DNA of 41,242 nt from a virus: the IMG/VR virus record IMGVR_UViG_3300047558_000146, positions 1 through 41,242 of that record; one strand, given 5' to 3'. Every line of letters begins with the position of its first letter. The stretch's first letter is position 1. Below the pieces are notes generated by a model, which ran no database searches, was not told where the DNA came from, and was given only the letters and a program-made list of their open reading frames with translations. Made by a program: the position numbers and the translations under genes. Positions 2,183 to 17,780 of the stretch are shown in pieces.

Positions 2183-2190
2183 TATAAATA
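2183..2190 (+). promoter_or_regulatory. Consensus late promoter TATAAATA, five bases before a start codon
   Basis: An exact TATAAATA with the ATG at 2196 after the five bases GTTGT. In T4 the element covers about -13 to -6, which puts +1 on the A of this ATG. No Shine-Dalgarno can be drawn. Confidence 0.7.
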
Positions 2191-2195
2191 GTTGT

Positions 2196-2591
2196 ATGGA
2201 AGATTACGATTACAACGGCGACGAAATCAAACTTGATTTCACTATGTTCATTCACATGACTGATGATGAACTTGAACTACACTCAAATCTGTGTATGGTT
2301 AGATGCCAACTATTTGAAGATGTTGGAGATTCAAATAATCTAGCACGTGAAAGAACACACTTGCGATTGATGTCTATGGAACGTGTTCGTCGTGTCAAGA
2401 TGTATGCCGCACATATTGAACGCCATCCTTACTTTGATGAGTTCGTTATGGCTGGAGAGATTGAAGACCCTGTTATTAAATCCGAAATGTCTGGTTATTG
2501 GATGCGTGAAATGGATAGAGAGATCGACCGCCTAATGCTCTCAACTTACAACCCAAAGAACCCAGCTTCACGTAAAAAGTCTTTGCGCTGA
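2196..2591 (+). CDS. Unknown protein expressed from a leaderless late promoter
   Basis: The 131-residue protein begins MEDYDYNGDEIKLDFTMF. It is mostly charged and helical, with an acidic N-terminal third and a basic C-terminus (NPASRKKSLR). I recognise no family. ATG 2196 was chosen because the upstream in-frame TTG at 2178 lies before the late promoter itself. There is no ribosome site, consistent with a leaderless message. Its 3' end overlaps the opposite-strand GIY-YIG gene by 46 bases. It is probably a late gene. Confidence 0.65.
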   Translation: MEDYDYNGDEIKLDFTMFIHMTDDELELHSNLCMVRCQLFEDVGDSNNLARERTHLRLMSMERVRRVKMYAAHIERHPYFDEFVMAGEIEDPVIKSEMSGYWMREMDREIDRLMLSTYNPKNPASRKKSLR

Positions 2592-3238
2592 TCGCCTAAC
2601 CTATCAGCATACGCATCACTTAACAATAATCGAATCACATTCTTTTCTGATTGTGGCAGTCTGTTCTTGGTCATCTCTTGACTTAACTTCTTCTCACTAA
2701 ATCCACACGCAACACGCAACCTACCAGCAAGTTGATACATGGCACTCTTGGTGTCTAAGTCAGTCCATGTGTTTTGTTGCGCTTCTTTCTTGAGTTCATA
2801 AGATATACGGCGACGATTACGTGCCTCTTCCTTCTCTCTCTTTTCTTTCTCAATTCTGTAGTTCTTGACATCTTGCCATGTTGTGATCGATGGAATACGA
2901 ACCATCTCATCCAACACATCCCCCCGACGCATGTTGGTTAGCGGCATGTCATATGGCTTGAATACAATACCACGTGCTTGATTCTCTCGTGCCTTCTCCA
3001 ACACATAAGCATATTCACTGTCCTGTTCTTCTTTAACACCAAAGTGGATCAACTCAAGACGCCACTCAATACCCATTTCTTCTAAACCACGAATGAATAT
3101 ATACTTTGCGGTAGACCACTCTGGATGCGATAAGTTGACCGCATTACGCTTGTGCTCCAAATAACGACGCTCAACATCATTCGACCGCCCTACATAAAAA
3201 CAAATGTCATCTACATATAAACCATAAATTGAAATCAT
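2546..3238 (-). CDS. GIY-YIG family endonuclease
   Basis: The 230-residue protein opens with the GIY-YIG core: IYGLYVDDICFYVGRSNDVERRYLEH, split as the Gly-Leu-Tyr and Phe-Tyr-Val-Gly motifs followed by the catalytic-type Arg (GRSNDVERR) and the helix with His. A Glu/Lys/Arg-rich coiled segment lies at about residues 125-150, and the rest may bind DNA. GIY-YIG enzymes of phages are often homing endonucleases. It is on the opposite strand, between the late unit at 2196 and the replication operon. The start ATG is five bases after an AATAAATA on the minus strand, so it also looks leaderless and late. Confidence 0.8.
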   Translation of the reverse strand: MISIYGLYVDDICFYVGRSNDVERRYLEHKRNAVNLSHPEWSTAKYIFIRGLEEMGIEWRLELIHFGVKEEQDSEYAYVLEKARENQARGIVFKPYDMPLTNMRRGDVLDEMVRIPSITTWQDVKNYRIEKEKREKEEARNRRRISYELKKEAQQNTWTDLDTKSAMYQLAGRLRVACGFSEKKLSQEMTKNRLPQSEKNVIRLLLSDAYADRLGDQRKDFLREAGFFGL

Positions 3239-3243
3239 ACACC

Positions 3244-3251
3244 TATTTATT
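3244..3251 (-). promoter_or_regulatory. Late promoter motif AATAAATA on the minus strand
   Basis: Read on the minus strand this is AATAAATA, then GGTGT, then the ATG of the GIY-YIG gene. The five-base spacing equals that at 2183. The AGGTG inside the spacer is too close to the ATG to act as a normal ribosome site. Confidence 0.55.
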
Positions 3252-3316
3252 ACCGACCTATGGTTCCATTTTTTTGATTTTTACAACCACCAGTAAATTC
3301 AAAATTTGGATGTATC

Positions 3317-3324
3317 TATTTATC
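3317..3324 (-). promoter_or_regulatory. Second minus-strand late motif GATAAATA
   Basis: GATAAATA on the minus strand, 66 bases upstream of the first. It would give a leadered transcript of the GIY-YIG gene. There is no start codon at the matching distance, so it is weaker evidence. Confidence 0.3.
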
Positions 3325-3343
3325 TCTCCGCATATTTTGGTTA

Positions 3344-3373
3344 TTGACGTGGGCTTAGATAGTGTGTTAGAAT
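3344..3373 (+). promoter_or_regulatory. Sigma70-type promoter for the replication operon
   Basis: TTGACG at 3344-3349, an 18-base spacer and TAGAAT at 3368-3373 with an upstream TG (TGTTAGAAT). It lies 33 bases before the primase start and is divergent from the GIY-YIG gene. Confidence 0.6.
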
Positions 3374-3406
3374 GAGTTTTTTACTCTATAGAAGAAAGGC
3401 AAAAAA

Positions 3407-4441
3407 ATGACAAAAACCAAGCAAACCTATGGTTTGTCGGTGTTTAATAGTGTTGAGAAGGCATACGTTGCGGATCAATGCGATTGCACACTTGATGAAC
3501 TTGGCGACATACTAACCACATTCACTCAAGTATCGAGCAAAGACGAGGTTCCATTATTCAATTTGGCGAAGTTTAAGACACTTGAAGAAGGTGCTGAATG
3601 TGCTCGTAAATACGACTTTATTAACGGTGAACGACAAGAGACATATAAATTGTTGACTGACAAGGTTCGTCGTTGTAAATCCAACCTGATATCACTTGGT
3701 GGTATTGTTCTTGACGTTGATAACAATCATTCATTGGAAGACGTTGTCCTACTGTTGGATGGTGTTTATTACATTGTCTATACCACATTCAACCATACAT
3801 GGGACAAACACAAATTCCGTGTTGTGTTGCCGTTCTCAACTCCACTTATGGCAGAAGATATTGATGGTCGGATCGATTCAATCATAGATACATTCCCGGG
3901 TGTTGATCGTGCCTCATTTTCTGTATCTCAATCATTCTATTTCCATAGCGGTGCGGATAAGGAAAATTCATTTGCCAGGGTTGTTGAAGGTGAGTTGATC
4001 AACCCATATGACTTTGAGGTTCGTGTGGTTGAACAAGTAGAGGCTCCAGCGTTTGATTTCAATCCAATGAGCGACGATATGAGTGAACGCTATCGTGCCA
4101 ACGTTGTTGAGAGTTTGTTGACATGTAGCGGTCTACACTATGATAGTCAGAATGGTCACCGCAATGGCGGTGTGCTGACACTGGTATCTATTTGCCGCTC
4201 AGTAGGATTGTCCTACGAAGAGTTTGATGCTATCTGTCAAGCAATTTGCGACCCATCCAGTACTTTGGTAAAGCGAGAAATTCGTAAGGTTGCGTGGACA
4301 GGTTGGAAGTCTGATAAGATTACACGTGACAAACGTAATGACTTTATCAAGGCAAATGGTGGTAAACCACCACAAACACACACACCGTGGCAAGAAACAC
4401 GCCACACTTTATTTGAAAAATACAAAAAAAGTGCTTGTTAA
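3407..4441 (+). CDS. Archaeo-eukaryotic-type primase (prim-pol domain)
   Basis: The 344-residue protein has an AEP-like core. GGIVLDVDNNHS at residues 98-109 supplies a metal-binding Asp-x-Asp. YTTFNHTWDKHKFRVVLPF at 125-143 is the 'YTTFSHT...RFRVVLP' pattern of phage prim-pol proteins. DRASFSVSQSFYFHSG at 167-182 resembles the third motif. The C-terminal part (GGVLTLVSICRSVGLSYEEF and on to WTGWKSDK) looks like a helical PriCT-type domain. GAAAGG precedes the ATG. It is the first gene of a replication operon with two helicases. It probably lays primers at the origin. Specific activity is inferred. Confidence 0.75.
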   Translation: MTKTKQTYGLSVFNSVEKAYVADQCDCTLDELGDILTTFTQVSSKDEVPLFNLAKFKTLEEGAECARKYDFINGERQETYKLLTDKVRRCKSNLISLGGIVLDVDNNHSLEDVVLLLDGVYYIVYTTFNHTWDKHKFRVVLPFSTPLMAEDIDGRIDSIIDTFPGVDRASFSVSQSFYFHSGADKENSFARVVEGELINPYDFEVRVVEQVEAPAFDFNPMSDDMSERYRANVVESLLTCSGLHYDSQNGHRNGGVLTLVSICRSVGLSYEEFDAICQAICDPSSTLVKREIRKVAWTGWKSDKITRDKRNDFIKANGGKPPQTHTPWQETRHTLFEKYKKSAC

Positions 4442-4463
4442 GCACGACTCAATTAGTTATAAT
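4435..4463 (+). promoter_or_regulatory. Sigma70-type promoter before the SF1 helicase
   Basis: TTGTTA at 4435-4440, a 17-base spacer and TATAAT at 4458-4463. It overlaps the primase stop and a small hairpin (GTGCTT/AAGCAC). Confidence 0.6.
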
Positions 4464-4500
4464 AGTAGTTGGCGAAATGCCGCAAAAAGAAAGGAAAAAT

Positions 4501-5793
4501 ATGTTTTACAAAATAAATGGTTCTGCCGGTACTGGCAAAACTCACGCTATGATCGAAAAGATCAAAGAACTGGAGTCTACCAATACTCCATACATTCTAA
4601 TTACACCAACGAATAAAGCCGCAATGGTTCTAAATTCTAGATTAGACAATGCTGGACTGAACCCATGCGCAAGAACATTACATTCTACCATTTACAAATG
4701 GGTTCAAGGTGATGTAAAAACTACAAGCAAAAAAAGATACATTGACCCAACAACAAATAAGTTTGCTGTTGATGAGATCGGTAATCCACTGTATCGTGAA
4801 GAAGTAGAATACTACTGGAATAAAGAAATCACAGATGATATTCATAATAAGGTTGTGCTGATTGATGAGTCTAGTATGGTTCAATCTGATGTATGGTATG
4901 ATTTACTAAACTGTGAGGGTATTATTCAGATTTTTGCTTTTGGTGATGAAAAGCAGTTACCACCAGTTGAGAAGTATGATATCTTAGAAAGTCACATAAA
5001 ACCTTACTACAGATTTTGGCACAACTTCGATGCCCATAAAACGCTAACTAAGAATCATAGACAAGCTGGCGATTTAAAAACATTTGTAGATATCATTGAA
5101 CAAAGTTTATTCTCTGATAGAAGTAGTGCTATCCCCGTCCCATTATCTGTTGGTAACAACTTTACTATTCATGCGAGTTCTATCACAGAAGACATCCTAA
5201 AACAACTTATTATGAATAGTGATATCGTAATCACACCATATGTAAAAGTTCGTGATATCGTAAATACTATTCGTAGAAAAATCCAAGCAAATGAATCAGG
5301 GGTTAGATACAAAGATTATCCTGTTGTTGGTGATAAGGTAATCTTTATCGATTCTTTAAAAATCAAAGAAGGCAAATATCGCAAACTATTGATTGCTAAG
5401 AATACAACAGGCATCATAAAAAATATTCATGACACCGATTTATTCAACCAAATGATGCTAATTGATTTCGAAGATGAAACAGGGCTCTTACACCATAACG
5501 TTCAGATTAGTATTACTAAAGTGACAAACAGTCAACTCATAAATGGACTGCCAAGAATAGATTACTCATACGCAGTAACCGCACACAAGTCGCAGGGAGG
5601 TCAGTGGAAAGACGTATTATTCTTAGATAGCTTTTGGAAAGAAGATGCAGAAAAATTACGATATGTCGCCGTTACCAGAGCAACTAAATTTTTATCAGTA
5701 GTTACTGGCATAACTAACGCCAGTGAGGGTGAGAGTGCTAATAGGAGTATTCTTATTCGTTTAGCAAAGTTAGTACAACAGGAGTCAAAATGA
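4501..5793 (+). CDS. SF1 DNA helicase, RecD/Dda-like
   Basis: All main SF1B motifs are visible in this 430-residue protein. Walker A is GSAGTGKT at residues 7-14 and motif Ia is TPTNKAA. Walker B is VLIDESSMV, motif III is GDEKQLPP and KNHRQ follows. Motif V is YAVTAHKSQGGQW and motif VI is RYVAVTRATK. These enzymes move 5' to 3' on single-stranded DNA and help replication or recombination; T4 Dda is the well-known phage example. ATG 4501 was chosen because AAAGGAAA precedes it and Walker A then lies near the N-terminus as in Dda. The earlier in-frame ATG at 4435 overlaps the promoter. The stop overlaps the next gene. Confidence 0.9.
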   Translation: MFYKINGSAGTGKTHAMIEKIKELESTNTPYILITPTNKAAMVLNSRLDNAGLNPCARTLHSTIYKWVQGDVKTTSKKRYIDPTTNKFAVDEIGNPLYREEVEYYWNKEITDDIHNKVVLIDESSMVQSDVWYDLLNCEGIIQIFAFGDEKQLPPVEKYDILESHIKPYYRFWHNFDAHKTLTKNHRQAGDLKTFVDIIEQSLFSDRSSAIPVPLSVGNNFTIHASSITEDILKQLIMNSDIVITPYVKVRDIVNTIRRKIQANESGVRYKDYPVVGDKVIFIDSLKIKEGKYRKLLIAKNTTGIIKNIHDTDLFNQMMLIDFEDETGLLHHNVQISITKVTNSQLINGLPRIDYSYAVTAHKSQGGQWKDVLFLDSFWKEDAEKLRYVAVTRATKFLSVVTGITNASEGESANRSILIRLAKLVQQESK

Positions 5794-7661
5794 CAAAAAA
5801 TGAAAATGAGTTCAAAAAAGAACTATTAGAAGACCCAACAGCAGAGTTGGATCAAGCAAAACTAGAGATAAATCAACAATTATCCCAGCAAAAGTTATTA
5901 CTGAAGGCGGCGCAGAAAAAGTTGCGTCAGTTTGAAGCTTTAGATATCGAGATAGTTACAGATAAAAAAGAAAAGATTGAGGCTCAGACCACTGTTATAT
6001 TTCAACTAAATGATAAGATTACTGAACTAGAATCCGACCTAAAGAGCCTAACAAGAACCCGTGATGACGAGAATGAAGAAAAAATTCAGGGAGCATTATT
6101 CAAAGTGGCAGAATGGTGCAAGAAAGATGCCAGTGTAGCGTATGTTATCGAGCGTGGTGATTTCGTTTATGTAGACAACTACTCAACTACCGCAGAGAAA
6201 CCTAACGTTCTATTCAGAAATATCGAGCCTACTAAGTTCGTGCAAGAATTGGCAGTAGCATTAGGTATCAAGTCATGGCATCTACCAGTGCCACGTGTTA
6301 TTGACTTGTTTAACTCTATTGGTAGAACTTATCACATGAGTAGATACTCAGTAGACGAGCGCTTATGGAATAGCAATAAAATTTATCTACCTATCAAACA
6401 CATGGAGCCATACTTTATCAACAATGATATTGTTAGTGGTGATTACAGTGAATATTTCGATTGGCTGATGTACTCATTGAGCGGCGGCAAAGCAGAGAAT
6501 AAAGAGCATATCGAGCGCTGGTTGGTTCATAAAGTCATCAACTATCGTAAAGCAGTTACTACTCCAGATTTGGTGATCGTCGGTCACGTCGGTGGCAACG
6601 GCAAAGGTATTTTACAAGCAATCGTTAGATTAATGTTCCCTGCCAGTTTGAGCGGAAAAGCAACTACTAAAACGCTAAAAAGTCAGTTTACTGCCATCAT
6701 GATTGGCAAGTTGATTGTATTCTTCGATGACCAAGACAGTAAAGAAATCTCATTAGAAGTAGTCAAACAAATGGCTGGCGCTGATACAATGGTATTTGAA
6801 GAAAAAGGTCGTGATCAGTTTGAGGCAGAAAAGACCCATAGTAGTGCTTGGTTCAGTCAGAATCTACCATTCAAGTTGACTCCCGGTGGCAAAGAAGGTG
6901 GCGTTGACCGCAGATTCTCTATCATGCGCACCAACATTACATTCTTAGAAAGTATTCGCAAACACTACGTTACTGGAGCAGATACTCCAATGACCGTAGA
7001 AGAAAGCAAAGATGTAGCTGAGAATATCGTTAGAGACTTCCTAATAAACCGCATAGAAGTAGCTAAGTGGTTCAAACACCTACAAGCAAAGTATCCTGAA
7101 ATCGATGAAAACTACACTCTTAAAGCCCTACATGGCGACGACTACCAATATTTCTTAGAACAACAAAGTTCAAGTCTAGAGCGTATCTGGGACAAACTGG
7201 TTTTACCACAAATCAAAAAAGGCAGTTGTGTTCCGCTTTTTGTAGTAAAAGAACTTATCAGACACCTTGGAGACGGCAATATCGGAGACAAACGCTTGGC
7301 TACTCACGTAAAACAAATGATATCAGAGGGTAATATCGAGATGACACTTGAGCGTCACAGTATCGAAATCACACCAAGTCAGTTTAATAGTAAAAAGCAA
7401 TGTTTCGTCATTCGACCAAAACATGGCAAAGATTGGACAGACCAGAGTTTCGATTGGAACTTAGTCAGTAAAACACCATACAAAAGTGCTAGAGCATCGT
7501 ATGAAGATATCATTACCGAAGATGACTTATGTTTCGGTGAGATTCACGATGATGTTATAGTCGAAGACAATGACGCCATGCCCGAGTCAGAGACCAACCC
7601 AAAAGATAAACTGACTATGCTTATGAATCGCATGATGACCAACAGAAAAGATATCATCTAA
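5790..7661 (+). CDS. SF3-type replicative helicase (P4/DUF5906-like) with N-terminal coiled coil
   Basis: The 623-residue protein starts with a long Glu/Lys/Gln-rich coiled coil (about residues 15-95). An SF3 helicase core follows. Walker A is GHVGGNGKG at 265-273 and Walker B is IVFFDDQD at 309-316. A motif C-like AWFSQNLPF lies at 353-361 and the arginine-finger region is VDRRFSIM at 372-379. These helicases load at origins in phages and satellites, often with an AEP primase, here a separate gene upstream. AGGAG precedes the start, which overlaps the preceding stop. A terminator and the repeat-rich origin-like block follow directly. Confidence 0.85.
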   Translation: MTKNENEFKKELLEDPTAELDQAKLEINQQLSQQKLLLKAAQKKLRQFEALDIEIVTDKKEKIEAQTTVIFQLNDKITELESDLKSLTRTRDDENEEKIQGALFKVAEWCKKDASVAYVIERGDFVYVDNYSTTAEKPNVLFRNIEPTKFVQELAVALGIKSWHLPVPRVIDLFNSIGRTYHMSRYSVDERLWNSNKIYLPIKHMEPYFINNDIVSGDYSEYFDWLMYSLSGGKAENKEHIERWLVHKVINYRKAVTTPDLVIVGHVGGNGKGILQAIVRLMFPASLSGKATTKTLKSQFTAIMIGKLIVFFDDQDSKEISLEVVKQMAGADTMVFEEKGRDQFEAEKTHSSAWFSQNLPFKLTPGGKEGGVDRRFSIMRTNITFLESIRKHYVTGADTPMTVEESKDVAENIVRDFLINRIEVAKWFKHLQAKYPEIDENYTLKALHGDDYQYFLEQQSSSLERIWDKLVLPQIKKGSCVPLFVVKELIRHLGDGNIGDKRLATHVKQMISEGNIEMTLERHSIEITPSQFNSKKQCFVIRPKHGKDWTDQSFDWNLVSKTPYKSARASYEDIITEDDLCFGEIHDDVIVEDNDAMPESETNPKDKLTMLMNRMMTNRKDII

Positions 7662-7666
7662 TTAAT

Positions 7667-7695
7667 AAAATGCACCAAAATGGTGCATTTTATTT
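7667..7695 (+). terminator. Terminator of the replication operon
   Basis: AAAATGCACCA at 7667-7677 pairs perfectly (11 bp) with TGGTGCATTTT at 7681-7691 around an AAA loop, with T/A-rich sequence on both sides. It may work in both directions. Confidence 0.75.
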
Positions 7696-7714
7696 GTCGT
7701 CTCTTCATAGTTTC

Positions 7715-7848
7715 TTAGCACAATATCACAATATCACAATTATTTTAGTCGTAAGCTAAAAACAAGTCAAAAATAAAAAAAAAATAAAAAAAATATTTTC
7801 CTAACCTGAGTTTTCAAAAATAATTGTGATATTGTGATATTGTGCTAA
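7715..7848. repeat. Perfect 32-bp inverted repeat around an A-rich core
   Basis: The left arm is 7715-7746 and the right arm 7817-7848, exactly complementary over 32 bases. Each arm holds tandem copies of an 8-mer (CAATATCA on the left, its complement TGATATTG on the right). The 70-base centre is very AT-rich, with A8-A10 runs at about 7770-7792. Iterated arms plus an unwinding-prone centre directly after the helicase genes resemble a replication origin. It could also extrude as a cruciform. Confidence 0.7.
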
Positions 7849-7853
7849 AATTT

Positions 7854-7950
7854 CTGTAAACCCTTGATTTATAAGGGTTTTTTTGTAGCACGATTATTTT
7901 TGATCGTGCTAATCGTGCTAGAATCATGCTAAGAAACTTAGTTTCTTAGG
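7854..7950. repeat. Structured repeat element copy 1, with terminator and hairpins
   Basis: The 23-base sequence at 7854-7876 (CTGTAAACCCTTGATTTATA then AGG) recurs exactly at 17635-17657. Within it AACCCTT (7859-7865) pairs with AAGGGTT (7873-7879), followed by T residues, so it can terminate transcription. Then comes TGTAGCACGAT, a hairpin with ATCGTGCTA, three spaced copies of C(G/A)TGCTA, and a near-perfect palindrome CTAAGAAACT/AGTTTCTTAG. GCTAAGAAACT here is also the complement of 7709-7719, so this block and the 32-bp repeat are nested. Confidence 0.6.
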
Positions 7951-7954
7951 TATT

Positions 7955-7968
7955 AAGTAGTACTACTT
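7955..7968. repeat. 14-bp perfect palindrome
   Basis: AAGTAGTACTACTT is fully self-complementary. It lies between the origin-like block and the promoter at 8010, and is a possible dimer-protein binding site. Confidence 0.4.
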
Positions 7969-8009
7969 CAGCACTATGGACGCTTATTCGATGACCGACG
8001 TTATGATAC

Positions 8010-8052
8010 TAGGGTAAATCCCTACTCCCTAACACAAAAAACATGGTAAGAT
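8010..8052 (+). promoter_or_regulatory. Phage promoter copy 1: TAGGGTAAA box and -10 element
   Basis: TAGGGTAAA at 8010-8018, then 28 bases, then an extended -10 (TGG before TAAGAT at 8047-8052). The same box, at 27 bases from TATACT, precedes the related leader at 16843 on the other strand. No good -35 hexamer is seen, so the box may bind a phage activator. Confidence 0.45.
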
Positions 8053-8054
8053 AC

Positions 8055-8106
8055 ACACATCAACACAGCAATAGTGCTGTTAGATAAACCAAAAAGGAAA
8101 TTAATC
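8055..8106 (+). repeat. Duplicated 5' leader copy 1 with hairpin
   Basis: This leader is almost identical over about 50 bases to the one on the minus strand at 16783-16834. It contains ACAGCA (8065-8070), loop ATAG and TGCTGT (8075-8080), then TTAGATAAACC, and ends with the ribosome site AAAGGAAATTAATC before ATG. Confidence 0.75.
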
Positions 8107-8388
8107 ATGACTACCACAAACAACTCACTTCAAGCAGTCGTTCACGAAACTTATGACAACCTGCTCGATCTGGAAAACTTCGTAGATGAAGTTAAAACCA
8201 CCGACTTGGAATACGCTGATCAAGTCCACATCCCCTCTTGCTTCACACAGGCTTGCGACAACATGGAACTTGCTCTCGAACTACTCAACTCACCAAACAA
8301 TGATGACACTATCAAAACATTGCTTGATTCTGTTATCGATACAATCAACTTCATCAACGATTGTAAATTCCAATCTTCACTAACCTAA
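8107..8388 (+). CDS. Small acidic protein, unknown function
   Basis: The 93-residue protein starts MTTTNNSLQAVVHETYDN. It is acidic and looks helical throughout, with two Cys residues near the middle. I do not recognise it. ATG 8107 is favoured over 8074 because it follows AAAAAGGAAATTAATC at the normal distance, and because the same leader precedes the start at 16782. The promoter box and position just after the replication block suggest early or middle expression. Confidence 0.7.
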   Translation: MTTTNNSLQAVVHETYDNLLDLENFVDEVKTTDLEYADQVHIPSCFTQACDNMELALELLNSPNNDDTIKTLLDSVIDTINFINDCKFQSSLT

Positions 8389-8395
8389 AAACAAT

Positions 8396-8450
8396 GCCCT
8401 GACAGGGTTTTGATATGGTGGCTGTCAGGGCACCCTTTAACCACCATATC
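8396..8450 (+). other. Predicted H-type pseudoknot with two perfect 10-bp stems
   Basis: GCCCTGACAG (8396-8405) pairs with CTGTCAGGGC (8422-8431). GATATGGTGG (8412-8421) pairs with CCACCATATC (8441-8450). The order stem 1, stem 2, stem 1, stem 2 is that of an H-type pseudoknot, with loops of 6 and 9 bases and no bases between the stacked helices. No U run follows, so it is not a usual terminator. It lies 8 bases after the gene at 8107 and 15 bases before the next start. It might protect the 3' end, regulate the downstream gene or act as a protein-binding RNA. Confidence 0.65.
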
Positions 8451-8452
8451 AT

Positions 8453-8460
8453 CTTAAATA
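8453..8460 (+). promoter_or_regulatory. Late promoter-like CTTAAATA, five bases before a start codon
   Basis: It matches the TAAATA core of the late element, with T in place of A at position 2. Five bases (CCACC) separate it from ATG 8466, as at 2183, 9048 and 16956. There is no ribosome site. Confidence 0.4.
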
Positions 8461-8465
8461 CCACC

Positions 8466-8591
8466 ATGAACCAACAAGACATCAAAACAGCACTTCAACT
8501 CGCATACCAACTGTATGACGAAACACACGACCCAAAACTACACACCATCATCACCATCCTAGAAAATCTCCTCATTAATTCGAAGGGATAA
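8466..8591 (+). CDS. Short unknown protein (41 residues)
   Basis: ATG 8466 to TAA 8589-8591 gives MNQQDIKTALQLAYQLYDET and on to LENLLINSKG. It looks like a single amphipathic helical hairpin. There is no Shine-Dalgarno. The start is five bases after a late-promoter-like motif. The coding spacing and codon choice fit the neighbours, but the family is unknown. Confidence 0.5.
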   Translation: MNQQDIKTALQLAYQLYDETHDPKLHTIITILENLLINSKG

Positions 8592-8594
8592 ATA
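8587..8594 (+). promoter_or_regulatory. Late promoter motif GATAAATA before the gene at 8640
   Basis: The motif overlaps the stop of the preceding gene and is 45 bases before ATG 8640, which has its own ribosome site. This would be a leadered late unit. Confidence 0.4.
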
Positions 8595-8639
8595 CATACA
8601 ACTGAACTACTTTCAGTCACACTCAATAAGGATCAACAA

Positions 8640-8819
8640 ATGAACAAAAAATATTTCAACCCAATTACCAATGAACAACAAACTTTAACTGATGAAGAAC
8701 AAGCAAAATATCGTGACTTCGTATACGCTGAAGACATTAAAGACTACGCTACTGTTAACGACATCGTTGTTTGGTTCCGTCGCAACAACCCAGTGTTTTA
8801 CCTTCAAGAAATGAACTAA
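8640..8819 (+). CDS. Short unknown protein (59 residues)
   Basis: ATG 8640 to TAA 8817-8819. The protein begins MNKKYFNPITNEQQTLTDEE and ends with an aromatic, basic segment (VVWFRRNNPVFYLQEMN). AAGGA lies eight bases before the start. It is acidic in the middle and probably helical. The family is not recognised. Late motifs flank it on both sides. Confidence 0.6.
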   Translation: MNKKYFNPITNEQQTLTDEEQAKYRDFVYAEDIKDYATVNDIVVWFRRNNPVFYLQEMN

Positions 8820-8820
8820 C

Positions 8821-8828
8821 GATAAATA
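8821..8828 (+). promoter_or_regulatory. Late promoter motif GATAAATA
   Basis: It lies directly after the stop at 8819. The nearest ATG (8832) is only three bases on. A second in-frame ATG at 8853 has AAAGGA at 8839-8844. Confidence 0.4.
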
Positions 8829-8831
8829 CAC

Positions 8832-9047: not shown

Positions 9048-9055
9048 GATAAATA
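9048..9055 (+). promoter_or_regulatory. Late promoter GATAAATA, five bases before a start codon
   Basis: GATAAATA, then CTTGC, then ATG 9061. It comes right after a terminator, so the gene needs a promoter here. No ribosome site is present. Confidence 0.65.
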
Positions 9056-9060
9056 CTTGC

Positions 9061-9393
9061 ATGAAACCGAAATTAACTCTTGACACAGATATTCTTCTCA
9101 CACTGTTGTTGAATGAATGTCGCATCACACGTAAACAGTTCACCGCCAACATGAACAAAAAATACAATCTCGCACGTGCAAACCATGTGACTGATCAAAA
9201 GTTCATGCTTGGTAAACCTAATCCAAAATCTGGTGAGGAAATGTATGTTGAAGAAAGTATCTACGACACTGGCAACTACTTGGTTAAGACAACCAAACAT
9301 GGTCGAGTAAAAGCTATTGAGCGTAAAGCACAAGTAGTTACAAAACCAAACGTCGTGATCAAGAAAAAGAAGGTTAGAAAGATCGAACGATGA
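9061..9393 (+). CDS. Basic unknown protein, leaderless late gene
   Basis: The 110-residue protein starts MKPKLTLDTDILLTLLLNEC. It becomes strongly basic toward the end (VVIKKKKVRKIER), which suggests nucleic-acid binding or a virion role, but I recognise no family. It starts five bases after a late motif and its stop overlaps the next start (ATGA). It heads the unit that leads into the terminase genes. Confidence 0.65.
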   Translation: MKPKLTLDTDILLTLLLNECRITRKQFTANMNKKYNLARANHVTDQKFMLGKPNPKSGEEMYVEESIYDTGNYLVKTTKHGRVKAIERKAQVVTKPNVVIKKKKVRKIER

Positions 9394-9929
9394 ACGACGA
9401 AAATAAGCCGTCTGGCAACCTGCCACACATAGATGATGGGTTGGTATTCACAGACAAAGAAAGCGTCTATAAATGGCGCTATAACCCAAAGACAAAGGTG
9501 TTTTCACAAGAGAACTACGCCAAAGCACCTGCCAGAGAATTTAAATGGTGGCACCGATATGACGCTGATGGCAATAAAGAAACAAGACGTGCCGCACAAA
9601 ACTCAAAACCCGTCGGCGAAGGCTGGATGATTGGAGTTGGAACACATACACCTGAGCACATTAAAAAAATCAGCGATGCGCAAGTAGGTGTTAAAAAATG
9701 CCAAGAAACCAAAGACAAAATGAGCGTCGCTAAATTAGGCATCAAAAAAAGCGACGAACATAAATTGTCAATGTCAAGAGCACATAAATTAAGATGGAAA
9801 AAAATCCACCTTATCAAAACATTCGACCCTAGCATCACCCTAAAACAAGCACAAGAAATCATCAAAGCACTAGCCGACTACTCAATCGACGATTACACAG
9901 CCGAGTTGATAAATAAACACAAGGACTAA
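9390..9929 (+). CDS. NUMOD3-containing protein, homing-endonuclease-like
   Basis: In this 179-residue protein, residues about 88-140 carry NUMOD3-like repeats. One is HTPEHIKKISDAQVGVKK, then ETKDKMSVAKLGIKK, then SDEHKLSMSRAHKLRWKK. In endonucleases these modules bind DNA beside a GIY-YIG or HNH nuclease. I see neither nuclease core here. The N-terminal part (WWHRYDADGNKETRR, then PVGEGWMIGVGTHTP) may be an unknown domain. It could be a degenerate homing enzyme or a phage DNA-binding protein that adopted the module. It overlaps the gene at 9061 by four bases. Confidence 0.6.
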   Translation: MNDENKPSGNLPHIDDGLVFTDKESVYKWRYNPKTKVFSQENYAKAPAREFKWWHRYDADGNKETRRAAQNSKPVGEGWMIGVGTHTPEHIKKISDAQVGVKKCQETKDKMSVAKLGIKKSDEHKLSMSRAHKLRWKKIHLIKTFDPSITLKQAQEIIKALADYSIDDYTAELINKHKD

Positions 9930-9931
9930 AT

Positions 9932-10180
9932 ATGACCCAACGATATAAATTAACCACTGGACCAGACGGCACAGTATGGTTGCCGCTACAACCAATGATC
10001 TTGGATTTACAAGAACAGATGGACAAGTTTTCAGAACAACAACATATTGTTGACAAGCTATATGCTGTCCGCACGTTTTTAGATGCCCTAGTGTTTGAAG
10101 CACAGCGTGATGCTATGTTTGCTGATAAGACATTGAAAGAATGCGAGAAAGAAGCATCGTATAAGGACACACTTGAATGA
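9932..10180 (+). CDS. Unknown small protein
   Basis: The 82-residue protein starts MTQRYKLTTGPDGTVWLPLQ. The first 25 residues look like strand and turn, and the rest is a charged helix (LQEQMDKFSEQQHIVDKLYA). AAGGA precedes the start, and a GATAAATA motif lies at 9908-9915 inside the previous gene. It overlaps the next gene by four bases. No family is recognised. Confidence 0.6.
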   Translation: MTQRYKLTTGPDGTVWLPLQPMILDLQEQMDKFSEQQHIVDKLYAVRTFLDALVFEAQRDAMFADKTLKECEKEASYKDTLE

Positions 10181-11182: not shown

Positions 11183-11196
11183 ATTAAAGTAATGTA

Positions 11197-11700: not shown

Positions 11701-13121
11701 AATTATATGGTGAGCAAACAACTCTGTTGAGAGATTGGCTTACCACAGAAAAACATGTGATGAATATCGTACCTGTTGGTAGCGGTAAGACATTCCTTGC
11801 TTCAATTGCATTACCAATCTTTGCCAGCGACGCAAAGTACCACAAAGGTAAAGATGTTATCTACTCAGCACCTACACGTGAAATGATTAAGACACTTATT
11901 TGGGAACCACTTAAAGAAAGTTGTCGCAACCTGTTTGGTGTGCCTGATAAAGATATCAACAACAGTGAACTAACTATTCGCTTTTCTAATGGCACATACA
12001 TTCGTTGCAAATCAGCAGAACAAAAAGAAAATCTACGTGGTATCAACGCTGGTATATGGGTAGCTGATGAGGCGGCGTTATATAGTGAAGAATCTTTACT
12101 CGAAATCACCAACCGTTTGAGACCGAAAGTAGGGTCGCCTGATAGTGAAGGTAGATTTATTGTTATCTCTACCCCTAACGGTGCCAACGCACTATTCACA
12201 CTTTACAACAATGCGCTAAAAATGCCAGACAAATGGATTGTTCATCACATGACATATGAACAAATGCGTAGCGGTAATAAGGCATTCATCGAACAACAAA
12301 AACAAATCCTATCACCACTCAAGTTTGCAAAAGATTATCAATGCGTTTGGGAATCGGTTGAAGATAAGTTCTTTATGGCATGGAACAGAACAATGTGTGT
12401 TGAAGAGATTAAAGATGTTGGTGGTGATCTTTATTCGTTCCACGACTTCAACTCAAAACGTATGTGTGCTGTTGTTGCTAGAGTAAAGAACCCAAACATG
12501 TTGAACGGAACTATTGAAGTGATAAGAAGCTATGCGATACCAAACTGTTCAACTGAAGGTATAGCACAAGCTATTCGTGAAGATTTCCCTGAACGAAATA
12601 TCTACGCCATCATCGACGCCACAGGCGCACACAATAACCGATCTACTACATCACAGTTCGGTATTACAGATAAGACTTTGTTGGAGAAGTATGGTTTCAC
12701 TGTTGTTACAAACATGAAATCAAACCCACGCATCAAAGATACTGACAACGCATCAAACGCATTTATCGCACGTGGTGGATTGAAAGTTGCCGCATCAGAT
12801 ACTCTGTTGCTTGAGGCACTAGACAACTACCACTACGAAGACGCATCAAGAATTAAATTAGTCAAATACCAAGAACAACAGTTCGCACACATGGACGCTC
12901 TTGGAGACTGTATCCGTTACGGCATCAATCATTTATTCCCAGTAACACACAACGAAACACCAGTACCAGATTACCAAACAACAACAAATATTGGTAACCA
13001 AATGCCCGGCGCAAAATACCGCAAACAAGGCATCTACGGCGCTGGTACACCTACCATTGAAGAACTACTCAACGGTGAGGCTATGGCTTCACAATACAGT
13101 GATTCTGTTGCGTGGGACTAA
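11679..13121 (+). CDS. terL: Terminase large subunit
   Basis: The 480-residue packaging motor has an ATPase with Walker A PVGSGKT at 32-38, Walker B IWVADEA at about 126-132 and coupling motif STPNG at 164-168. The RNase H-like nuclease follows: FHDFN (first Asp), IYAIIDATGAHNN (second) and HMDALGDCIRYGI (third). ATG 11679 has GGAGG eight bases before it, but ATG 11697, in a classic ATGA overlap with the endonuclease stop, would remove only six residues. It pumps DNA into the prohead and cuts concatemers. No frameshift or lost catalytic residue is seen. Confidence 0.93.
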   Translation: MGAPTTMKLYGEQTTLLRDWLTTEKHVMNIVPVGSGKTFLASIALPIFASDAKYHKGKDVIYSAPTREMIKTLIWEPLKESCRNLFGVPDKDINNSELTIRFSNGTYIRCKSAEQKENLRGINAGIWVADEAALYSEESLLEITNRLRPKVGSPDSEGRFIVISTPNGANALFTLYNNALKMPDKWIVHHMTYEQMRSGNKAFIEQQKQILSPLKFAKDYQCVWESVEDKFFMAWNRTMCVEEIKDVGGDLYSFHDFNSKRMCAVVARVKNPNMLNGTIEVIRSYAIPNCSTEGIAQAIREDFPERNIYAIIDATGAHNNRSTTSQFGITDKTLLEKYGFTVVTNMKSNPRIKDTDNASNAFIARGGLKVAASDTLLLEALDNYHYEDASRIKLVKYQEQQFAHMDALGDCIRYGINHLFPVTHNETPVPDYQTTTNIGNQMPGAKYRKQGIYGAGTPTIEELLNGEAMASQYSDSVAWD

Positions 13122-13142
13122 ATAACTAATAAGGATATTCCA

Positions 13143-14729
13143 ATGAAAGCATCTACGCTTCTACACAAAAACAATCTATATTCGGCAACATCGCATACCA
13201 TGATGATGTACGAATCAGCATATTACGCCAACGAACACTTCAAACGTATGTGTCGCAAAAAGCGTCCTAGCGAAGATGCGGCTATCTACAACGACTTGAT
13301 CAGCCACACAACAACAATGCCAATCTCTAGCTATGTTGTTAACACTCTTAACGATTGCGTATTCGAACAACCAATCAATCGTGAACTACACTTTGCAAAT
13401 GAGATGGGCGGTATGGTTAGTGATATTCAAGATTGGGCAGAACTATTCATGCTAGACGCAGACCTAACCAATACCTCATTGGACGGCGTAATGGAGAACA
13501 TTGGAGACCTTACAAGCATCTATGGCTACTGCTGGGTATTCGTAGACATGCCAACCGCTCAAACAGGCTATGAGACATCTCTACGCCCTTATGTCGTACC
13601 AGTATCACCAACCAACGTTTGGGATTGGGAATTTACAGAAGTGCGTGGTGTAATGATTCCTGAATACGTTAAAGTGTTAGAACGTGAAGAACCAGACTGC
13701 TACTACTTCAAATGCTACTACCTTGGAACAAAAACAACTCCATCATATTGGGAAACATATGAAGTAGAAAAAGGCAGTGAGAATAATGCTGATGGAGAAC
13801 TACAACCTATCGCCACAGGACAGTTCCCATTAGGTATGTCTATTCCGGGTTTTATGGCATACACAAAACGTGATCCACGTAGATTCGATCTTGGTATCAG
13901 TGATATCGCTGTTGCCGCTGATGTTCAAAAAGAAGTGTACAAGCTTGAGTGTGAGGCGTTCCAGAGTATCCAATTCGCAAGAACACTAATTCGTGCGGAA
14001 CCCGGGGTTAAAGTGCCAGCACAAGCAGGTAGTATTGTTCGTGCAACTATGGGTCAAATTGAAGCTATTCCAGTTGATCAACAAGATGTGTTGGTGCTGA
14101 TTGAGAAACAACAAGACTTGTTAACACAGTTCCAAACCTTAACTGGTTTTGGCGGTATCAACAAACAAAGCAAACAAGTTCAAAGCGGCGTGAGTATTGT
14201 TGAAGAGCGCAAACAACTACACCGCATGGCAAAAGCAAAAGCACGATTACTTGAAGTATGTGAAGAACAAATCTGGACATTCGCCAGTAGGTTCATGAAC
14301 GTGCGTTGGGCAGGTGAAGTATCATATGGCACCGACTATGATCGCACAGATAGTCAATACAGAATTGCACTACTGGAAAAAGCAAAACAAATGTTGCCAG
14401 AGAATCCAATCATCAATGGATTGGTATTGAAAGAGTTTGTTGGTATGTTAGTAGCACCACACGAACTACCAGAGTACCAAGAAGCTATTCTTGCCACACA
14501 AGATGAAACAATCAAGTTGTTGGACAGAGAACAAATTGGTGAGATTTATTCACGTGACGTTGGTGATCAAGTACCAGAAGATGGTGAAGAGGATGAAGAT
14601 AGCAAGTCTGATATGGAAGACAATGCTGAAGAGAGTTCTAGCTCTACCAATATTCTTCAAACAGGTCAATCAATGTATCCACAACAATCAGCGCAAAGCA
14701 TGTTGTTTGGACCTATGGCAGGTAGATAA
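13143..14729 (+). CDS. Portal protein
   Basis: The 528-residue protein lies directly after the large terminase, the usual portal position and size. Supporting features are a central region with PVSPTNVWDWEFT, a helical stem (DVQKEVYKLECEAFQSIQFA) and the segment SGVSIVEERKQLHRMAKAKA. A disordered acidic Ser-rich tail begins near residue 478 (EDGEEDEDSKSD). The ring of twelve forms the DNA channel and the terminase docking site. AAGGA precedes the ATG. Assignment is by context and overall pattern. Confidence 0.85.
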   Translation: MKASTLLHKNNLYSATSHTMMMYESAYYANEHFKRMCRKKRPSEDAAIYNDLISHTTTMPISSYVVNTLNDCVFEQPINRELHFANEMGGMVSDIQDWAELFMLDADLTNTSLDGVMENIGDLTSIYGYCWVFVDMPTAQTGYETSLRPYVVPVSPTNVWDWEFTEVRGVMIPEYVKVLEREEPDCYYFKCYYLGTKTTPSYWETYEVEKGSENNADGELQPIATGQFPLGMSIPGFMAYTKRDPRRFDLGISDIAVAADVQKEVYKLECEAFQSIQFARTLIRAEPGVKVPAQAGSIVRATMGQIEAIPVDQQDVLVLIEKQQDLLTQFQTLTGFGGINKQSKQVQSGVSIVEERKQLHRMAKAKARLLEVCEEQIWTFASRFMNVRWAGEVSYGTDYDRTDSQYRIALLEKAKQMLPENPIINGLVLKEFVGMLVAPHELPEYQEAILATQDETIKLLDREQIGEIYSRDVGDQVPEDGEEDEDSKSDMEDNAEESSSSTNILQTGQSMYPQQSAQSMLFGPMAGR

Positions 14730-14730
14730 C

Positions 14731-14757
14731 AAAAAAGGAGCCTTACGGCTCCTTTTT
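14731..14757. terminator. Bidirectional terminator between convergent units
   Basis: AAAAAAGGAGCC, loop TTAC, GGCTCCTTTTT. A run on one side and T run on the other let it stop both the portal transcript and the minus-strand cluster. Confidence 0.85.
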
Positions 14758-15253
14758 ACTTTGCTTCTCGTTTCCAAGTATAGCCTTTGTGCTGTATTCT
14801 TTTGCCATTGATACATTCACTTACTTTACTCTGTGAAAAACCAGCATCTTTAATCTCTTTGGCACCGTGAAGTATTATCACTTCACCAGTTTTAATATTT
14901 GTTCCTATACTTCCTCCAAGGTATCTTCCATTCCCACATGCTATCCTTTTCTTAGCTCCATCTTTGTGCCGCTTTACAAAGACTTCGTCCTTAAATTTTT
15001 GACGAACGCCACTTAGTCTCTTTAATTTAAATTCTTCCGTGTTACATATTTCTTTAATACGTTTACTATGTTGGTTTAAATACGCCGTATCCTCATACCT
15101 TGACTTAACTTTTTTAGACATGTTAGTAGAGTATTCTTCAGTAAACATTTTAGATGTTCTTATTGAATGCCCTGTATATTTTCGTAGTTCCTTATCAGTA
15201 GGAACATCAATCTCTGCTAATGCGTCTTCAATTTCCTTATTAAGATTACTCAT
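14756..15253 (-). CDS. NUMOD-type DNA-binding protein, homing-endonuclease remnant or relative
   Basis: In this 165-residue protein, the C-terminal 55 residues (GGSIGTNIKTGEVIILHGAK, then SECINGKRIQHKGYTWKRE) clearly resemble the end of the HNH protein at 11197. The middle has NUMOD3-like repeats (EEFKLKRLSGVRQKFKDEVF, then VKRHKDGAKKRI). No HNH or GIY-YIG residues are evident in the N-terminal half. AGGAG lies before the start. It is the last gene of the minus-strand cluster. It could be an endonuclease with an unrecognised nuclease fold or one that lost it. Confidence 0.6.
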   Translation of the reverse strand: MSNLNKEIEDALAEIDVPTDKELRKYTGHSIRTSKMFTEEYSTNMSKKVKSRYEDTAYLNQHSKRIKEICNTEEFKLKRLSGVRQKFKDEVFVKRHKDGAKKRIACGNGRYLGGSIGTNIKTGEVIILHGAKEIKDAGFSQSKVSECINGKRIQHKGYTWKREAK

Positions 15254-15265
15254 ATCGTTCTCCTA

Positions 15266-16156
15266 TTATTTGCGTTTCAAGGTGTCCGTCCATCTGTCCA
15301 AATAGTTATCTGGATCGTTAATCATATCAGCGGCAAAGTCTCGAACTTGGCGATAACTGGTACTTCTGAGTCTATCCCAATTGCTATACATCCAGTTCAA
15401 CAGCTCTTTCTTCTGATCATCTGTAAGTAAGAAACCCTTATTTTCAAATGGTTGTGTGATGCTAAGAACATGTGCCAGCCAACCCCATTGAATATCCCAG
15501 TTCATGTTAATGCGATTATATTTAAAGCGATCAAATACTGGCTCAAAAGCATTCTTCACATTGGTCTTACGCCCAAAGCACTTAGGGTCTTCTAAGTCAA
15601 GATTACACAAGATTACAAAACGCACACGATTCACTGGAATAGCCAATCCAATGCCGTTAGCAGGTGTAAACGCATTGATAGCTTCTACCATACGAGTGTT
15701 ACCAGCTTTTTCAAACTGTAACAACATGTTGTACATGTTTACATTATGATTGAAGTGAGGCACAAATCCTGTTTCTTCATTTTCTTCTGCTGTTGCCAGT
15801 TTCCACTTGTTCATAGTGTCAATATCACGGAATACTAGGTCGTCGGCATCATCTAAGATTACGATTAATTCTTCATCATCTTTTAGAGAATGAACTCCGC
15901 TAGCTAAACTTACCGCAACTACAACATCACTAGTACCCGGGGCAATAACGATGTTCTTAATATTAGCCTTATTACATTCGTCTAGAGTGCCGTGAGTTTT
16001 ACCAACGCCAGCTGGACCACTTAGAATACTATGGCGACGAGCAACAACTTTGAATCCAGTTACACCTACCGATTCACGAATGAATTTACGAGACTTGTCG
16101 TCTTCGAGTTTACCATGTTGTACCAACAAATTTTGGGTTGCTGAGTTGAATTTCAT
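15266..16156 (-). CDS. AAA-type ATPase
   Basis: The 296-residue protein has Walker A GPAGVGKT at residues 47-54 and Walker B LIVILDDADD at about 97-106. Arg-containing segments follow, such as NRVRFVILCNLD, whose Asn could be sensor 1. The start has AGAGGAAA before it and overlaps the upstream membrane-protein gene (ATGA). It is too short for a replicative helicase and lacks a visible DNA-binding domain. It may be a loader or remodelling ATPase. The opposite orientation and the small membrane partner suggest an accessory module placed among the late genes. Confidence 0.7.
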   Translation of the reverse strand: MKFNSATQNLLVQHGKLEDDKSRKFIRESVGVTGFKVVARRHSILSGPAGVGKTHGTLDECNKANIKNIVIAPGTSDVVVAVSLASGVHSLKDDEELIVILDDADDLVFRDIDTMNKWKLATAEENEETGFVPHFNHNVNMYNMLLQFEKAGNTRMVEAINAFTPANGIGLAIPVNRVRFVILCNLDLEDPKCFGRKTNVKNAFEPVFDRFKYNRINMNWDIQWGWLAHVLSITQPFENKGFLLTDDQKKELLNWMYSNWDRLRSTSYRQVRDFAADMINDPDNYLDRWTDTLKRK

Positions 16157-16371
16157 TTTTGATTTTCCTCTGAATTTTCATTTGATTTTAGATAACTGAT
16201 TACCAACCACAACACACCAATCACAACCAATGCTGGACCAAGTCCAGCTGATGATGGTGGTGCGGTAGGAGCGCATACCATGTTCGCTCCAACTGGTCTA
16301 CACGTCATTGATTGAGCACCAACATGTGTTATGGTGAACGCCAAGATGATTGAGATGATTGCGGATTTCAT
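16153..16371 (-). CDS. Small exported or membrane protein (72 residues)
   Basis: A signal peptide is visible at residues 1-19 (MKSAIISIILAFTITHVGA). A short extracytoplasmic part with two Cys follows (MTCRPVGANMVCAP), then a Pro/Ser linker and a membrane segment at about 46-64 (ALVVIGVLWLVISYL), with a charged tail. AGGAG precedes the start. Its position near the endolysin makes a holin or spanin role possible, but there is no lipobox and the gene is on the opposite strand, coupled to the ATPase. A membrane partner of that ATPase is the other option. Confidence 0.6.
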   Translation of the reverse strand: MKSAIISIILAFTITHVGAQSMTCRPVGANMVCAPTAPPSSAGLGPALVVIGVLWLVISYLKSNENSEENQK

Positions 16372-16409
16372 TTTGTTCTCCTGTTGTTGAAATATGAATT
16401 TACCATAAT

Positions 16410-16441
16410 ACTAGGGTTTGTGTATTAGGACAAACCCTAGT
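16410..16441 (-). other. Perfect 12-bp hairpin between minus-strand genes
   Basis: ACTAGGGTTTGT (16410-16421) and ACAAACCCTAGT (16430-16441) are exact complements around an 8-base loop. No U run follows on either strand, so it is more likely an RNA-processing or stabilising hairpin, or an operator, than a terminator. The arm includes CTAGGGT, close to the TAGGGTAAA promoter box. Confidence 0.5.
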
Positions 16442-16452
16442 AGAACAAAGTA

Positions 16453-16782
16453 TTACGCTTTCGCCGCCATGGACAGAGTGAAAGCATCAACGTGCTTTTC
16501 TGTGACAGAAACACAGAAACCCAGCGTTTTCAAGAGTTCCTCTTTATCGTTATCCGAGAACATAAGTGTAACTACCCCAGCTTTAGAAAGCACTGCCAGT
16601 AGAACCGTCGCATCTCCCACTTTTGTTGCGTCGCCACGCACGATCGGGTTTGAAACAAAGAACTCAAGAGCAATTCCGACCCGTTCACTTGTAGTATTGA
16701 TTGATACTACTCCAACTTCTTCCATAAATGCCAAAAGAAGAGAGTAATAGTTAAGCTCATTATTAAGAGTTGCGTTTTTCAT
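16453..16782 (-). CDS. Unknown protein, first gene of the minus-strand cluster
   Basis: The 109-residue protein starts MKNATLNNELNYYSLLLAFM. It has hydrophobic alternating segments (VLLAVLSKAGVVTLMFSD) and looks like a small alpha/beta fold. No family is recognised. The start is fixed by AAAGGAAATTAATC and by the promoter-leader unit shared with the gene at 8107, although the two proteins do not look alike. An antisense open frame over the same bases has no ribosome site and is not supported. Confidence 0.65.
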   Translation of the reverse strand: MKNATLNNELNYYSLLLAFMEEVGVVSINTTSERVGIALEFFVSNPIVRGDATKVGDATVLLAVLSKAGVVTLMFSDNDKEELLKTLGFCVSVTEKHVDAFTLSMAAKA

Positions 16783-16878
16783 GATTAATTTCCTTTAAGG
16801 TTTATCTAACAGCACTATTGCTGTGTCGATGTGAGAAGTATACATCAAAAACGACAAAAAAACTAAGTGTTTACCCTA
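16783..16878 (-). promoter_or_regulatory. Phage promoter and leader copy 2 (minus strand)
   Basis: Read on the minus strand: TAGGGTAAA (16878-16870), 27 bases, TATACT (16842-16837), then a leader with the ACAGCA/TGCTGT hairpin (16824-16809) and AAAGGAAA before ATG. The leader matches the one at 8055-8106 except for a few bases. Confidence 0.65.
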
Positions 16879-16955
16879 ATTTTTGAAAATATTTTTTGCT
16901 ATAACCTGTTTGTTTTCAAACACAAATTTACTAAGAAACAAAAGTATTACGTTTC

Positions 16956-16963
16956 AATAAATA
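16956..16963 (+). promoter_or_regulatory. Late promoter AATAAATA, five bases before the endolysin start
   Basis: AATAAATA, then AACAC, then ATG 16969. There is no ribosome site. The spacing supports this internal ATG as the true endolysin start. Confidence 0.65.
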
Positions 16964-16968
16964 AACAC

Positions 16969-17589
16969 ATGATAACCATAGAACTTTTAAGGGCATTATG
17001 TCCAAAAACCAAGGTTTCGGTGCTTGAAAAGTATGTTGAGCCGCTAAATGAGGTCTGTGAATACTACGAAATCAACACCAATCAGCGTGTTGCTGGGTTC
17101 TTAGCGCAGGTAGCACATGAAAGCGGTGACTTCAACTTTACCAAAGAGAACTTGAACTACTCAACTAAAGGGTTGATGACCACGTTCAAGAAGTATTTTC
17201 CAACTGAGGAGTCAACAAATGGATATTCGAAAAATCCTACCAAAATCGCCAACAAGGTCTACGCTAATCGTATGGGCAATGGCGCTGAATCTACTGGTGA
17301 TGGTGCCATGTTTTGCGGCAGAGGTCTCATTCAACTCACAGGCAAGCAGAATTACAGTCGTTTTGCCGCCGACTTGGAAATGTCTATTGAAGACTGCGTT
17401 AAGTACATGGAAACACCAGAAGGAGCAGTGTCGAGTGCTGGTTGGTTCTGGGACAACAACGACCTAAACAAGTACTGTGACAATGACGACTTCACAATGC
17501 TAACCAAACGCATCAATGGTGGAGTTTTGGGATTGGCTGATAGGCTAGAAAAGTACCATCATATGTTGGATATTTTAAGTCAATCCTAA
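16969..17589 (+). CDS. Endolysin, glycoside hydrolase family 19 (chitinase/lysozyme type)
   Basis: The 206-residue protein has the GH19 hallmarks: VAGFLAQVAHESGDF at residues 41-55, with Glu51 as the likely catalytic acid, and CGRGLIQLTGKQNYSRF at 116-132. GWFWDNNDLNKYCD and the ITKRINGG-like TKRINGGVLGLADR follow. Phage members cut peptidoglycan glycan strands at lysis. The open frame extends 34 codons further upstream, but the late promoter at 16956 and the family's usual start support ATG 16969. No signal peptide is seen, so a holin should release it. The element at 17601 follows. Confidence 0.88.
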   Translation: MITIELLRALCPKTKVSVLEKYVEPLNEVCEYYEINTNQRVAGFLAQVAHESGDFNFTKENLNYSTKGLMTTFKKYFPTEESTNGYSKNPTKIANKVYANRMGNGAESTGDGAMFCGRGLIQLTGKQNYSRFAADLEMSIEDCVKYMETPEGAVSSAGWFWDNNDLNKYCDNDDFTMLTKRINGGVLGLADRLEKYHHMLDILSQS

Positions 17590-17600
17590 AAACCCAAATC

Positions 17601-17715
17601 TATCTGCTTATCTGCTATAAAGCCCCACAACCACCTGTAAACCCTTGATTTATAAGGCTTTTTTCTGTAGCAGATAAAAAATGGGTATCTGCTACGACCT
17701 GCTACGACCTGCTAC
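17601..17715. repeat. Structured repeat element copy 2
   Basis: It starts with TATCTGCT twice in tandem (17601-17616). The 23-base core at 17635-17657 is identical to 7854-7876 and is followed by T residues (weak terminator). Then GTAGCAGATA (17667-17676) pairs with TATCTGCTAC (17686-17695), and GCTACGACCT is repeated (17691-17710) and ends with GCTAC. The order tandem 8-mers, core, TGTAGCA hairpin, direct repeats is the same as in copy 1 although the 8-mers differ. Confidence 0.65.
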
Positions 17716-17749
17716 AAATCAGTCTTTTTCTATGGTTTTGGTGCTACTC

Positions 17750-17757
17750 GATAAATA
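17750..17757 (+). promoter_or_regulatory. Late promoter GATAAATA of the scaffold gene
   Basis: GATAAATA, then GGTAC, then GTG 17763, again the five-base spacing. If the scaffold instead begins at ATG 17814, this promoter makes a leader of about 50 bases holding the TCGGTGGCACCGT element. Confidence 0.6.
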
Positions 17758-17780
17758 GGTACGTGAGAAATCACATAACT

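Follow-up and report, generated by a model that had tools for sequence, protein, structure and literature searches.

Can the late promoters of a virus be placed so close to start codons that the transcripts carry no leader? The question is raised by virus record IMGVR_UViG_3300047558_000146, probably a fragment, whose whole 41,242 bases were analysed and are called the window here. From its letters it had been predicted that late-promoter motifs end exactly five bases before several starts that have no usable ribosome site, and that other late genes, with other spacings, carry Shine-Dalgarno (SD) sites. The late regulon with two translation classes that was proposed from this is supported by what we found, with the same box standing before starts without SD at spacings of 4-5 bases and before SD-led starts at 15-30.

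The window and its relatives

The late sigma factor that the original prediction placed at 1208 is real, as its product matches phrog_12791, annotated as sigma factor for late transcription (E 6.8e-63), and phrog_234 (E 2.9e-26). PA5oct, HTVC008M and T4 have homologues of it, and so do G008 and the relative G013. Besides this gp55-type sigma the window encodes primase-like and helicase-like proteins, the large terminase, portal, scaffold, major capsid protein and an endolysin. HNH and homing-endonuclease-like genes are dispersed among the phage genes, at 233-745, 9390-9929 and 14756-15253. The closest relatives are other environmental contigs, and among cultured phages the portal has weak matches, chiefly to Pelagibacter phages such as HTVC026P. 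Since the 1208 sigma as sole query on viral contigs gave only three distant loci, the portal, major capsid and large terminase proteins were used as family queries, and these gave a set of about 185 related loci (2.0 Mb).

Predicted late promoter boxes joined to start codons

The sequence ATAAATA-N5-ATG occurs four times in the window, against 0.22 expected from dinucleotide shuffling, and none of 100 shuffles reaches four; the genome scan that had been suggested as a check thus speaks for the proposal. These are the boxes predicted before 2196, 3238, 9061 and 16969, all of them present, and each opens a frame that is 110 codons long or longer (Table 1). The anti-SD duplex energies are -0.9 at 2196, -2.3 at 9061 and -0.3 at 16969. 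At 3238 the energy is -6.3; however, this SD is not usable because its AGGTG runs into the five-base spacer, one base from the AUG. The lack of a usable ribosome site therefore holds at all four starts. At 8466 the variant CTTAAATA-N5-ATG is present as described, and it is plausible as a fifth site because the TTAAATA variant keeps the N5 peak in the family (see below), but its place in the leaderless class is less certain.

The boxes, of the form NATAAATA, are found ahead of late genes for virion and lysis proteins, and in both the window and the family they precede SD-led genes as well as genes without SD. All four genes singled out for their other spacing do carry SD matches: AAGGA at 8640, TAAGG at 18853, GAGGTGA at 30181 and AAGGA at 37678.

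Table 1. Predicted late promoters and associated features of the window, and N5 starts of HTVC008M
Feature	Genome	Position	Strand	Remark
gp55-type late sigma gene	window	1208..2095	+	phrog_12791 and phrog_234
Late promoter TATAAATA-N5-ATG	window	2183..2198	+	box at 2184; predicted +1 = A2196
Predicted leaderless ORF	window	2196-2591	+	131 aa; no homologue found
Late promoter AATAAATA-N5-ATG	window	3236..3251	-	box at 3250; predicted +1 = A3238
Predicted leaderless ORF	window	3238-2546	-	first minus-strand gene past strand switch
Variant late promoter CTTAAATA-N5-ATG	window	8453..8468	+	41-aa ORF 8466-8591; less certain
Late promoter GATAAATA-N5-ATG	window	9048..9063	+	box at 9049; predicted +1 = A9061; predicted leaderless ORF 9061-9393
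SD-led late promoter GATAAATA-N16-ATG	window	9908..9934	+	ATG 9932; AAGGA
Late promoter AATAAATA-N5-ATG	window	16956..16971	+	box at 16957; predicted +1 = A16969
Predicted leaderless endolysin	window	16969-17589	+	phrog_181, E 3e-70
Late promoter GATAAATA of scaffold gene	window	17750-17757	+	not leaderless; scaffold leader 17750..17816
5'-terminal hairpin GTGAGAAATCAC	window	17763-17774	+	GNRA-type loop, GTGA-GAAA-TCAC
Pseudoknot element	window	17782-17800	+	scaffold leader
Late promoter GATAAATA, 168-base structured leader and SD	window	18677..18855	+	major capsid gene 18853
Pseudoknot element	window	18715-18732	+	major capsid leader
Box overlapping ATG (AATAAATATG)	window	21430..21439	+	gene 21437; directly 3' of terminator-like sequence
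SD-led late promoter GATAAATA-N15-ATG	window	30158..30183	+	ATG 30181; GAGGTGA
N5 start, 2OG oxygenase	HTVC008M	6280		
N5 start, CsgF	HTVC008M	7562		
N5 start on minus strand, tape measure	HTVC008M	16007		
N5 start on minus strand, DNA end protector	HTVC008M	18916		
N5 start, head closure	HTVC008M	18943		
N5 start, tail tube cap	HTVC008M	19456		
N5 start, baseplate wedge	HTVC008M	31132		
N5 start, baseplate	HTVC008M	49760		
N5 start, hypothetical	HTVC008M	75559		
N5 start, tail completion	HTVC008M	75830		
N5 start, transcriptional regulator	HTVC008M	142360		

Spacing across the related loci

In the family set, offsets (d) were counted between ATAAATA and any ATG at the head of an ORF of at least 35 codons, with twenty anagrams of the box as control. 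This comparison among related phages, also suggested beforehand, favours the proposed reading: 26 ATGs lie at d=4-5 in the approximately 185 loci, where 5.6 are expected. There are none at d=3, 13 each at d=4 and d=5, three at d=6 and about 1-4 at each offset from 7 to 14, followed by a second hump at d=15-30 in which the starts have an SD; the anagrams give about 2-4 per position. After deduplication by protein there are 15 at each of d=4 and d=5, and the genes at d=4-6 make up 24 protein clusters. Single-base variants of the box lose the peak or have it much reduced, except at the first position, where TTAAATA gives seven at d=5 over a background of about 1.1. The claim that the spacing is exactly five is borne out by the d=5 peak but is too narrow, as the window's relatives use 4 as well, so that +1 must be slightly flexible.

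The two classes of start differ in more than spacing. The median SD energy is -1.5 at d=4-5, with 3% at or below -5, versus -5.8 and 76% at d=15-30. A pyrimidine stands just before the ATG in 29/30 cases at d=4-5 compared to 44/100 in the SD class, a bias that would be predicted if transcription began at Y(-1)A(+1). The start codons at d=4-5 are ATG (30), GTG (2) and TTG (1).

Orthologues alternate between the classes, having either a spacing of 4-6 without SD or a spacing of 15-26 with SD. Members of the 9061 family have a spacing of 4 or 5 and no SD in two genomes; in others the spacing is 20-24 and an SD, or a sequence resembling one, is present. Most orthologues of 30181 lie at 15-19 with SD, and a single one (L049) is at spacing 6 with none. 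The endolysin has its N5 promoter in the window, and the relatives' copy sits directly 3' of the portal gene with no such promoter. Pairs of orthologues with and without a leader amount to a natural experiment on leader function.

HTVC008M and other phages

HTVC008M, a cultured phage of Pelagibacter, uses the same architecture as the window, with the same box at the same N5 spacing before virion genes, although it is a T4-like myovirus of 147 kb and keeps to spacing 5, not 4. Nine of its ATAAATA boxes are at d=5, against an expectation of 0.14, and d=4 and d=6 are empty. Allowing [ACT]TAAATA gives 12 N5 sites, and at all 11 of these that were looked up the ATG is the deposited CDS start, mostly of virion genes. 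The twelfth site has its ATG at 11972. About 20 environmental relatives of HTVC008M retain N5 ahead of gp48 and gp2, even at 45-55% protein identity, with the exception of one group that has a 3-base insertion downstream of the predicted +1. At HTVC008M 59714 and at gp2 of L330-L336 the spacing is 8, with three bases past the predicted +1 and then the ATG, which looks as though one codon of leader had been added to a leaderless start.

In HTVC008M (NC_020484) the divergent virion genes 18916 and 18943 are separated by a 26-bp spacer at 18917-18942, which consists almost wholly of two back-to-back late-promoter boxes, each five bases from its own ATG. About 20 loci keep this arrangement, with a spacer of 26-29 bp. 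A spacer of this length filled by two boxes has no room for an SD, and because the genes are divergent both need a promoter there. Late promoters have been reported to be unpredictable in pelagimyophages by existing methods (PMC7029224). If our reading is right, the fusion of promoter and start may help to explain why those methods missed them.

T4 itself shares with the window the NATAAATA box, the gp55-type sigma and the late virion genes, but its boxes lie at least 12 bases before SD starts and no ORF of at least 35 codons begins 4-6 bases from an ATAAATA. The ATAAATA class thus counts zero in T4; it counts zero in Syn9, one in S-PM2 and 0-1 sites in the first 400 kb of Atu_ph07. With [ACT]TAAATA there are four sequence-only matches in T4, with ORFs of 41, 62, 174 and 335 codons at the cut-off of at least 35. 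Pseudomonas phage PA5oct resembles the window in having a gp55-type sigma and an excess of sites, which is confined to spacing 5: five ORF sites against 0.47 expected, two of which match annotated starts exactly. These counts point, more weakly, to a leaderless-type class in that phage also.

A probable late regulon with two translation classes

These observations fit best with two classes, leaderless and SD-led, within one late regulon of the gp55 type, and we hold this explanation to be probable. We infer that the NTAAATA motif serves the phages considered here as their gp55-type promoter. The phage's late sigma would guide RNA polymerase to such boxes, most often GATAAATA or AATAAATA. Most late promoters would have the box at least 15 bases upstream of an SD-equipped start and yield a leadered mRNA, and in a second set the box would end 4-5 bases before the ATG. 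The T4 late promoter is a TATA box of 8 bp that precedes the transcription start by about one helical turn and covers about -13 to -6, its first positions being numbered -13/-12 (PMC2988020). If this geometry is transferred, a five-base spacer makes the A of the ATG +1 and the mRNA would be leaderless; a spacer of four would fit if the polymerase, favouring a purine after a pyrimidine, begins one base earlier. Ribosomes would then have to initiate on a 5'-terminal AUG, and presumably they do. The joining of promoter and start codon is strongly supported by the sequence data. The leaderlessness of the N5 mRNAs is supported indirectly, with +1 taken by analogy from T4. For some N5 genes in co-directional runs, read-through transcripts could serve as templates for translation as well.

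It is unlikely, in our view, that the AT-rich element is instead a translational signal, S1-binding or Kozak-like, for operon starts without SD. Upstream bases do tune non-SD initiation in other bacteria (PMC6847099), and some N5 genes do lie in co-directional runs. However, the same 7-mer is also found 15-30 bases before SD starts, outside the start context, and 3238, 16969 and the HTVC008M pair 18916/18943 follow a strand switch, so a promoter is needed there. A loose AT-rich signal would also permit ATGs at a spacing of 3 and at 7-14, where there are none and few, respectively.

We also give little credence to real promoters whose +1 lies one to several bases away, which would leave tiny leaders or transcripts missing the AUG, with translation from a later codon or from a read-through message. 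The sharp cut-off at 3 and at 6-7, the pyrimidine at -1 and the conservation of the proteins from their first residue, as in the lysin, which aligns to its relatives from residue 1, argue against such a shift, although the window's family uses two spacings, 4 and 5, and spacing 8 implies 3-base leaders at HTVC008M 59714 and at gp2 of several relatives. The 21437 family favours the shift as well and counts against the explanation that we prefer: its motif (ATAAATATG) fits neither the leaderless nor the SD-led class, the spacing is -1 to 2 in close relatives, distant relatives have an SD and a spacing of 30, and a fixed +1 cannot explain the overlap of box and ATG. In the window a terminator-like GGCGGGTT...AATCCGCCTTTTT lies within 21390-21439, followed immediately by AATAAATATG.

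An artefact of chance or composition in AT-rich intergenic DNA has next to no probability left and is already refuted by the controls, since, for all that the genome is 60% A+T and a single window holds few sites, neither the anagrams nor the single-base variants nor other codons give a comparable peak, and the Poisson p is about 3e-10 for the family set and about 5e-14 for HTVC008M.

Under the two-class regulon, the leadered class includes the capsid gene in the window and the sheath gene in HTVC008M, and the predicted leaderless class is made up chiefly of genes for low-copy virion parts, for lysis and for accessory functions. This distribution suggests a role in dosage, in which leaderless starts would serve low-copy tail, baseplate and lysis genes and leaders the sheath and capsid operons. 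A more speculative extension, which we regard as possible but doubtful, is that several gp55-type lineages separately built a regulon-wide leaderless class, with promoter and start codon as one element, that sets low-copy late translation or sustains translation when SD-dependent initiation is limited late. If so, a translational programme would be encoded in promoter spacing.

Single phage genes with leaderless mRNAs, lambda cI and others, are known. Leaderless mRNAs have also been described in mycobacteria (PMC4633059). Like these, the class predicted here has an AUG at or next to the (predicted) 5' end, no SD and a preference for AUG; unlike them, it joins the promoter of a phage sigma to many late start codons, beside a leadered class. 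In phage AR9 the 5' UTRs are 26-491 nt (PMC5312081). The open-access literature searched, on T4-like phages, cyanophages and pelagiphages, contained no account of leaderless late transcripts in a gp55-type phage, and novelty is provisional since that search took in few subscription papers; HTVC008M is not among the phages covered by a recent transcriptome paper on pelagiphages. If the reading is correct, phages that are abundant in the environment, Pelagibacter phages among them, have many late mRNAs with neither leader nor SD, which changes gene prediction and the view of late expression in such phages. The predicted +1 is exact to the base, and HTVC008M is available in culture.

Structured leaders of the scaffold and capsid genes

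One further start, GTG 17763, had been assigned to the N5 set. Its spacing from the box is as claimed, but we rejected it as a leaderless start: in the relative G001 an in-frame stop separates it from the scaffold gene, and a 5' hairpin and a conserved pseudoknot lie in the leader. The GTG is probably no start codon and opens the 5'-terminal hairpin of a structured leader, with ATG 17814 the likely start of the scaffold gene. A match to Rfam near 7643 in the window was below the gathering score and was taken as chance.

The scaffold mRNA is predicted to begin with the hairpin GTGAGAAATCAC, which may stabilise this message. An H-type pseudoknot of the form CGGT-NNN-NCCGTNNN(N)-N'N'N' is conserved in both the scaffold and the major capsid leaders, 3' of the late promoter; it matched no Rfam family in an Rfam search of the window and is possibly the binding site of a late protein. 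The element is present in the relatives L006, L007, L008, L009, L010, L012, L065, L066, L069, L071, L085, L091, L109, L117 and L172. Loop and partner covary (GGC:GCC, GAC:GTC, AGC:GCT, GAT:ATC, TGC:GCA and GAA:TTC), with a covariation score of 0.444 versus 0.188 in shuffles, and 97% of the cells are paired versus at most 42% when slid.
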